NCBI RefSeq assembly: GCF_002952775.1
Contig: NZ_CP025066.1
Location: 2,170,001-2,234,000, forward strand
Direction: 5' to 3'
Source: Halalkaliarchaeum desulfuricum
Lineage (GTDB): Archaea; Halobacteriota; Halobacteria; Halobacteriales; Haloferacaceae
DNA: 64,000 nucleotides
Made by a program: the position numbers and the translations under genes
Shown here: positions 42,921 through 44,872 of the stretch, piece after piece
Position numbering within the stretch: position 1 is the stretch's first letter
Layout: every line of letters begins with the position of its first letter
Notes under the pieces: model-generated
Seen by the model: the letters and a program-made list of their open reading frames with translations, nothing else
The model's database searches: none
Told to the model about the DNA's origin: nothing

Positions 42921-44872
42921 GGACCGACCACCTCCAAGTCCTGCTTGAATCCGATATCTCGAACTGCGGTCAGCAGTTCCTGACCAGTGACCGTAAGCGG
43001 CAGTTTGTATCGGGGCGAGGGCGCGTTGTTGACGAGCGATCGCCAGTTCAGAAACATCGCTGCGATGTTAATGATGTAAATCCGGACCAGTTCGTCATCT
43101 GATCCTGACTCGGGTAGGAAGCCACGTTTCAATGCCCGAATGAGCGTTTCGATAGCCCATCGATCACTATAAACGTCGGCAACGTCTACGGCGTCGTGTT
43201 CGGTTACGCTCAAGTACGATATATAGACTATGTGAGAACTGATGTCTCTCGCAAGAGAGTTGTCTACATTATGCGCAGCTCCGGTGAACTGTGCGAGTGT
43301 CTGCTGGTTACCCGCATCTTGAGTAGTGGTTGGTTTTGGATCCTGCTCTTTCGGCACGATAAAAGCGTTCGGATTTGGCGTCGCACTCGTCAGGTCCACA
43401 TCAGGTTCTGTATTCGGTTGTCCGTCCGGTGTCGGCCCAATAAGCTCCTTTTTTACCTTCTCATAGTTTTGGGCTTTGACGATCAGGCCCGGACAGTCGT
43501 GCTCGTAGACCGTTTCGATGATGTCCCCGTCGTAGAACTCCTTGTCGAAGAGGGCGTAGTTGATGTCGATAAACCGGGTCGCACGATCTAACGACTCTTT
43601 GAACGCGGCTGCATACTGGTCTTTGCTCTCGACGAGATTAACTCCAAAACAAACTGGGGCGTCCGTATTCACAGTCGCCATTACCGCATACTTCCATGCC
43701 GGAACGGAATCGTTCACTGGGTATGCCCGGCCAATCGTGTGCGGGTTCTTCCCGCCCCACCACAACTCGTCGGTCGTGTCTCCCGCAATATCAACCGTGC
43801 CATCACCGAACAGTCCGTGCGAATCGAATCGCTCCAATACTGAGGAGTGAACGGCATCGAACTGGTCTTCGATTTCAGCTTTCCCCAGTGAATTAGCGTA
43901 GGCTGAATCCCCTCGTAGTAACTCCGTAACGGTGTGCCCGCTCGGAACGGTGTCCTCGTCGTACAGGTACGCAGCTGTTGTTGAGCCGTTGGTGAGCCCG
44001 ACCGTTTGCAGCGCGGAGTGTGCGAAGGCTGCGATGATCTGTTCGAGTTCGTACTCGACTTCGCCGATACGGTTGAACGTGAGGTGCTGTGTTGCATCAC
44101 CGACCAAGATGCGTGCCCAGTTCCGCACGGCCTCTCGGCGAATGCTCGGGGAAACCCAGTTTTCTGACACAGTCATTTCGGTATCGAGCCCCCAACACTT
44201 GGCGATTTCCGGGGGAAGGGGGTATTCTCGCCACACGGCGTGCACCGCCTGTTTCGCAGCTTCTGCGATCAGTTCGGTGAGTCCTCCATCACGCATCGTG
44301 TTCTCGCGCCGGTACAGCGTTGGGATGCTCGGAAGCGGTTCGACTCCGAGTCGTTCGAGGGTCTGGGTCCGTGACTCTAGGTGTTCGTACAGTTTGGGGA
44401 TCGAATCCATTCCCCATGCCTCGTGGAGGAGATACGCGTAAATGTAAAATGGTTCGACCTCCGCCTCAGGGACGGTGACACCGACGCTGTTGAGCGCTCG
44501 ATCTGCGACTTGGAGGAGTTTGGCGTCGAACGCCTCGGGGGTGAGCGTGTCTCGATCGTTCGCGGAGTGGTTGTATGCAGCGAGTTGCGCGTTCAAGTAC
44601 CTCCGCTCGTCTAGATCGTGACTGTCAGTGGTTGGATGGGTGAGCGTGACAGTCCCTCCATCTATCGGGTCAGTTTCCGGAGCCTCTTGTGTGGATTGGT
44701 GACCGCTTGCGTCTGAATTCACAGTCTCCTCATCGTCATTTTCATCGTCTTCCCCACCGTCGTCCTCTTTCATTGAGAAGGTTTTATCGATACTGTAGGA
44801 TCCATTGGATCCGAGGTCACGGCTGTAGCTATCCTCGTGATTGATTACCACCTCCGCTTTTCGAGATGACAT
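42917..44872 (-). CDS. DDE transposase with PIP-box-like motif, operonic with a clamp
   Basis: The 651-residue protein begins with an acidic low-complexity leader of about 90 residues, then a helical region. An RNase-H-like DDE core follows: D365 (VDIAGDTTDELWWGG), D443 (YALFDKEFYDGDII) and E575 (YSDRWAIETLIRALKRGF), with a C-terminal IINIAAMFLNWRSLVN helix as in IS4-like and ISH-type transposases. Between the second Asp and the Glu, residues about 480-545 form a Pro/Thr/Asn-rich linker. It contains QQTLAQFT (Q523, L526, F529), a match to the PCNA-interacting QxxLxxF pattern. The downstream overlapping gene encodes a PCNA-like clamp. The family name is uncertain, and I found no terminal repeats. 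Confidence 0.8.
   Translation of the reverse strand: MSSRKAEVVINHEDSYSRDLGSNGSYSIDKTFSMKEDDGGEDDENDDEETVNSDASGHQSTQEAPETDPIDGGTVTLTHPTTDSHDLDERRYLNAQLAAYNHSANDRDTLTPEAFDAKLLQVADRALNSVGVTVPEAEVEPFYIYAYLLHEAWGMDSIPKLYEHLESRTQTLERLGVEPLPSIPTLYRRENTMRDGGLTELIAEAAKQAVHAVWREYPLPPEIAKCWGLDTEMTVSENWVSPSIRREAVRNWARILVGDATQHLTFNRIGEVEYELEQIIAAFAHSALQTVGLTNGSTTAAYLYDEDTVPSGHTVTELLRGDSAYANSLGKAEIEDQFDAVHSSVLERFDSHGLFGDGTVDIAGDTTDELWWGGKNPHTIGRAYPVNDSVPAWKYAVMATVNTDAPVCFGVNLVESKDQYAAAFKESLDRATRFIDINYALFDKEFYDGDIIETVYEHDCPGLIVKAQNYEKVKKELIGPTPDGQPNTEPDVDLTSATPNPNAFIVPKEQDPKPTTTQDAGNQQTLAQFTGAAHNVDNSLARDISSHIVYISYLSVTEHDAVDVADVYSDRWAIETLIRALKRGFLPESGSDDELVRIYIINIAAMFLNWRSLVNNAPSPRYKLPLTVTGQELLTAVRDIGFKQDLEVVGP

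Follow-up and report, generated by a model that had tools for sequence, protein, structure and literature searches.

The window analysed here, a 64,000-nucleotide stretch of the Halalkaliarchaeum desulfuricum genome, holds a transposase gene followed on the same strand by a gene for a sliding clamp. The pair lies in an IS-rich genomic island, and the relevant features are as follows.

38656-38731, plus strand: tRNA-Glu; the island holding the pair has its edge at the 3' end of this gene (ARAGORN; synteny)
38896-40086, plus strand: tyrosine recombinase of the island (Pfam Phage_integrase, 4.9e-13)
40152-41525, minus strand: second tyrosine recombinase-like gene, convergent, clustering with integrases of L093, L095 and L102 (no Pfam match)
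42159-42920, minus strand: PCNA-like sliding clamp of 253 aa, downstream of the transposase (phmmer, AlphaFold2, Foldseek)
42186-42197, minus strand: C-terminal LNPP of the clamp, corresponding to the LAP(R/K)I tail beside the PIP pocket of PCNA (alignment with host PCNAs)
42917-44872, minus strand: DDE transposase of 651 aa with D365, D443 and E575, a distant ISH3/IS4 relative (Pfam DDE_Tnp_1)
43247-43339, minus strand: disordered loop inside the DDE catalytic domain, residues 512-542 (AlphaFold2 pLDDT < 50; linker comparison)
43283-43306, minus strand: PIP-box-like motif QQTLAQFT, transposase residues 523-530 (translation; relatives with QQTLINF in L002 and QQTLVHF in L142)

The transposase is an IS4-type DDE transposase according to its catalytic triad, its YREK signature and its Tn5-like fold. 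D365, D443 and E575 are invariant across 30 aligned relatives, and the signature Y568-(2)-R571-(3)-E575-(6)-K582 can be read from the transposase sequence. The match to Pfam DDE_Tnp_1 is weak but above threshold; the match to NCBIfam ISH3 (7.7e-15, 54.8 bits) stays below the equivalog cut-off of 225. The folds closest to the AlphaFold2 model (mean pLDDT 83.6) are the piggyBac and Tn5 transposases. In its DDE domain the protein is distantly similar in sequence to the ISH3/IS4 insertion sequences of haloarchaea, and it shares the IS4 YREK signature with them. It differs from them in its length of 651 aa, its single copy in the genome, its partner clamp gene and the lack of detectable inverted repeats: within 700 bp of transposase and clamp, no terminal inverted repeats rise above the shuffled background at 18 loci. 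With a single copy and no inverted repeats found, the pair is at most a candidate for movement by its own transposase.

The downstream gene begins within the end of the transposase gene, its start codon and the transposase stop sharing 4 bp (ATGA). The earlier note had read this gene as a clamp, and homology to PCNA bears this out. Pfam gives no match for the window clamp; phmmer matches it to H. volcanii PCNA at E 6.4e-8, the NCBIfam sliding-clamp model matches it at 7.9e-9, and the sister clamp in L142 lies above the Pfam PCNA_N cut-off. With a profile of the transposase-linked clamps, matches appear in 390 of 391 haloarchaeal genomes; those to host PCNAs typically have E ~1e-40 to 1e-46 and include the organism's own host PCNA gene (G000:C1:3303624-3304340). 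The AlphaFold2 model of the window clamp (pLDDT 87.4, pTM 0.84) has the two-domain PCNA fold, with H. volcanii PCNA 3ifv as the top Foldseek match (TM 0.80-0.86). The neighbouring gene is a fast-evolving PCNA homologue.

Synteny with the only congener, G318, ends at 38732, and this stop at the tRNA-Glu 3' end marks the edge of a genomic island. An empty site in the congener had been considered; the comparison revealed the island edge instead. A search for an att copy finds none in the window and, elsewhere in the genome, only a match with one mismatch. Similar recombinases lie near pairs in L093, L095, L102, L108 and L100. An IS4-type element at window positions 46663-48300 has a 100% identical copy at G000:C1:2015383-2017020, which points to recent transposition.

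QQTLAQFT lies between the second Asp (D443) and the Glu (E575) of the DDE fold. The earlier note had placed it at 43283-43306 and residues 523-530 with the same numbering of D443 and E575, all of which is correct by translation and alignment; the minus strand encodes QQTLAQFT and the plus strand would read GELCECLL. In the transposase model, pLDDT falls below 50 at residues 512-542 between two confident strands (502-507 and 547-552), and hence the motif is predicted to sit on a flexible catalytic-domain loop, in agreement with the unstructured stretch that had been proposed for it. QQTLAQF has the PIP-box core Q-x-x-(L/I/M)-x-x-aromatic; position 8 of the motif is Thr, and the second aromatic of the PIP-box is absent. 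A string of the form Q..[LIM]..[FYW] arises somewhere in 21% of whole-protein shuffles and in 0.9% when the 39-residue linker alone is shuffled. Because of the former figure the motif taken alone is weak evidence, a caution already voiced in the earlier note.

Other haloarchaeal PIP-boxes also lack the second aromatic. The host's own FEN1 ends in the PIP-box QTGLDRWT, which has the same form as QQTLAQFT, Qxx(L)xx(aromatic)T. The last PIP position in H. volcanii is Met in PolB and PolD2, which thus have no second aromatic, and Asp in PolY (PMC2737543). Thr at position 8 is therefore no objection to a haloarchaeal PIP-box. A bacterial beta-clamp box was dropped as the identity of the motif, the host being an archaeon with PCNA.

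The pairing of transposase and clamp is not confined to the window. Haloarchaeal genomes hold 16 transposase+PCNA pairs (15 found first, then L142 in genome G456), all of them on one strand with the clamp next downstream, and the two genes often overlap. On the transposase tree the clamp-bearing members form three groups.

Group A, clamp-bearing: L003, L006, L009, L011, L023, L103
Group B, clamp-bearing: L019, L021, L022, L024, L028, L081, L096
Group C, clamp-bearing: the window transposase (L001), L002 and L142, the last added later

The sister of group C is a clampless set (L004, L005, L007, L008, L010, L012, L013, L015, L017, L018, L020, L105), with a join support of only 80/61. Clamp presence requires three changes on this tree, which may represent one gain and two losses. 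Beside the clampless relatives no significant clamp remnants occur, a result compatible with loss of the clamp as well as with its never having been there. The clamp groups mirror the transposase groups. Relative to host PCNAs, the clamps fall on one side of a branch (support 87/99, not proven), and their branches are much longer. A phylum-wide sample of genomes gives strong matches only within the window's own order, and a genome contig scan returns only two loci, both already known. On viral contigs neither the window transposase nor that of L002 has a relative, plasmid and phage collections do not match the clamp, and in the plasmid collection only distant transposases are matched. A gene for an AspBHI-like HNH restriction endonuclease adjoins four of the transposases, with and without clamp (L096:2648-3700(-), L103:6452-7501(-), L005 and L013).

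Within group C the motif is strictly kept. QQTLxxF is present in all three clamp-bearing members (QQTLAQF in the window, QQTLINF in L002, QQTLVHF in L142), and the pattern was set from the window and L002 before L142 was found. The L142 transposase is 42% identical to that of the window and 50% to that of L002 (40-50% across the clamp-bearing members of clade C, with L002 and L142 each about 40% identical to the window), and the linker outside QQTLxxF is poorly conserved. The best 8-mer shared by the three linkers is QQTLxxF itself with five identical residues, which none of 3000 triple shuffles reach, although this null ignores shared ancestry and the window paired with one relative at a time gives no better than P ~0.04-0.05. 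Among the clampless sisters, the full motif occurs at the same place in L004 (QTNIFDFT), L005 (QTNLSDFT) and L008 (QSSILEFS), and L007 has Phe in the middle position (QTKFSDFT). L010, L012 and L013 carry decayed forms, and the linkers of the clampless L015, L017, L018, L020, L105 and L152-L154 have no motif. As the full motif is missing from these last two sets, it is not indispensable throughout the clade. In the 13 clamp-bearing relatives of groups A and B the linker is short, and both loop and motif are absent.

The motif thus goes with one transposase clade and not with clamp-gene presence. The earlier note had proposed to check conservation in relatives with and without a clamp gene, and the outcome is divided: the motif holds in all of clamp-bearing clade C, but the 13 relatives in groups A and B have a clamp gene and no motif, and L004, L005 and L008 keep the motif without the clamp. 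Hence the motif is not a general tether to the neighbouring clamp, and the suggestion of such a link, for which relatives with a clamp gene and without the motif had been named as the refuting case, is not supported in the form given.

Two further strings in clamp-bearing transposases resemble PIP-boxes. Close to the N-terminus, the group B transposases read (K/N)Q(D/E)xV(D/S)xF, with the full Q-x-x-V-x-x-F in five of the seven (L019, L021, L022, L024, L028, L081, L096). It is possible that this string is a relocated PIP-box in a clade with a clamp and without the linker motif. The L023 transposase has the PIP-like string QSDIDKFV at its C-terminus.

The pocket that would receive a PIP-box differs between the encoded clamps and host PCNA. 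All nine host PCNAs compared carry V39, V44, M46, M239, L240, A241 and P242. The window clamp differs from its host PCNA by V39L, V44T, M46S, M239R and A241N and keeps L240, P242 and I244. The canonical pocket is kept by no clamp of groups A, B or C. The L-x-P tail is present in 3/3 group C clamps and 0/13 clamps of groups A and B (the nearest being IRP in L009). This hints, from one clade only, that the clamps of group C may still receive a PIP.

Taken together, we consider it probable that QQTLAQFT is a working, clade-specific PIP-box by which the transposase docks on a PCNA ring, most likely that of the host. The motif would have arisen in, or been kept by, clade C, one branch of a haloarchaeal family of transposases many of which come with a co-encoded, fast-evolving PCNA paralogue. 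From its flexible loop it could hold the transposase to the ring. The transposition complex would thereby be brought to replication forks or to gapped repair intermediates, and enzymes that fill gaps might be recruited once strand transfer has taken place. Host PCNA is the likeliest partner because its pocket is intact and the PIP of its natural client FEN1 has the same form; the retention of a full Qxx(L/I)xxF in the clampless L004, L005 and L008 is as expected for such a target. The encoded clamp would then be a possible second or alternative ring. In our view the main target is somewhat more likely to be host PCNA, with the encoded clamp as its strongest rival, and both may serve. The better retention of the motif in clamp-bearing members (3/3) and the L-x-P tail of clade C would suit the encoded clamp as partner at least as well as host PCNA. 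That the string is a functionless product of chance or a relict in a fast-evolving loop seems improbable to us. The 21% of shuffles with a match somewhere in the protein, the decay of the motif in many clampless relatives and its absence from the other clamp-bearing clades would fit such an origin, but a match arises in only 0.9% of linker shuffles, the motif recurs at the same place in diverged relatives including the held-out L142, and it has the form of the host FEN1 PIP.

The motif might instead tether the transposase specifically to the adjacently encoded clamp, the two proteins forming a private pair. The uniform order of the 16 pairs, their frequent overlap and the mirrored trees speak for this arrangement, as do a clade C motif that is strict in 3/3 members with a clamp and full in only a few without, and an L-x-P tail found in clade C clamps and in no others. 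Yet the signals from clade C all come from one clade and are not independent, 13 clamp-bearing relatives do without loop and motif, three clampless ones retain the motif, and the window clamp lacks M46, M239, V44 and A241 of the canonical pocket, so that we regard an exclusive pairing as doubtful. It is less likely still that the clamp, instead of being a partner through the PIP, joins or poisons the host ring in mixed trimers and thereby steers host replication or repair for the element, the transposase PIP being a separate adaptation. The full predicted PCNA fold of the encoded clamp, the divergence of the pockets in all clades and partly conserved interface strands in which Y106 and D172 are near-invariant are compatible with mixing; however, identity to the host over these strands is just 16-47%. 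Docking on host PCNA through a clade-specific PIP-box remains our preferred reading.

Contacts between transposition proteins and host sliding clamps have precedents in one archaeal IS family as well as in bacteria and in eukaryotes. IS1634-family transposases of Acidiphilium and Methanosarcina barkeri carry a sliding-clamp-binding motif, peptides of the Methanosarcina transposase bind archaeal PCNA, and stronger clamp binding raised transposition in bacteria (PMC4549789). These transposases resemble that of the window in having a Qxx(I/L)xxF-type motif but belong to a different family, the Acidiphilium motif lies near the C-terminus, and no clamp gene is reported alongside (PMC4549789). TnsE of Tn7, which contacts the beta clamp, is likewise a transposition protein aimed at replicating DNA via a processivity clamp, but it is bacterial, is a separate targeting protein and uses the host clamp only (reviewed in PMC5371812). 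The pogo/Tigger transposase and LINE-1 ORF2p are transposon proteins with a PCNA-binding box, which in ORF2p is needed for LINE-1 retrotransposition; in contrast to the pair described here they are eukaryotic, use host PCNA and have no encoded clamp (PMC5371812). On the clamp side, haloarchaea have second PCNA genes and halovirus PhiCh1 encodes a PCNA; these too are extra, diverged copies of mobile or unclear origin, but transposases are unmentioned there (PMC3404096). We found no description of a transposase co-encoded with PCNA in the open-access papers searched. The transposase-PCNA operon appears to be undescribed so far, and PIP-boxes in transposases are already known.

We also entertain, tentatively, a broader scheme in which an archaeal DDE transposase family has its own dedicated PCNA ring, on which the transposase would dock via the loop PIP-box in clade C or via other contacts in groups A and B (perhaps the N-terminal QxxVxxF in B), and in which transposition would be independent of, or compete with, the host clamp. 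The motif provides a concrete and testable contact for the transposase-clamp pairing. The family comes with a built-in comparison of members with clamp and motif, with a clamp and no motif, and with the motif and no clamp, which lets one ask whether mobile elements borrow the host replication clamp or bring their own.
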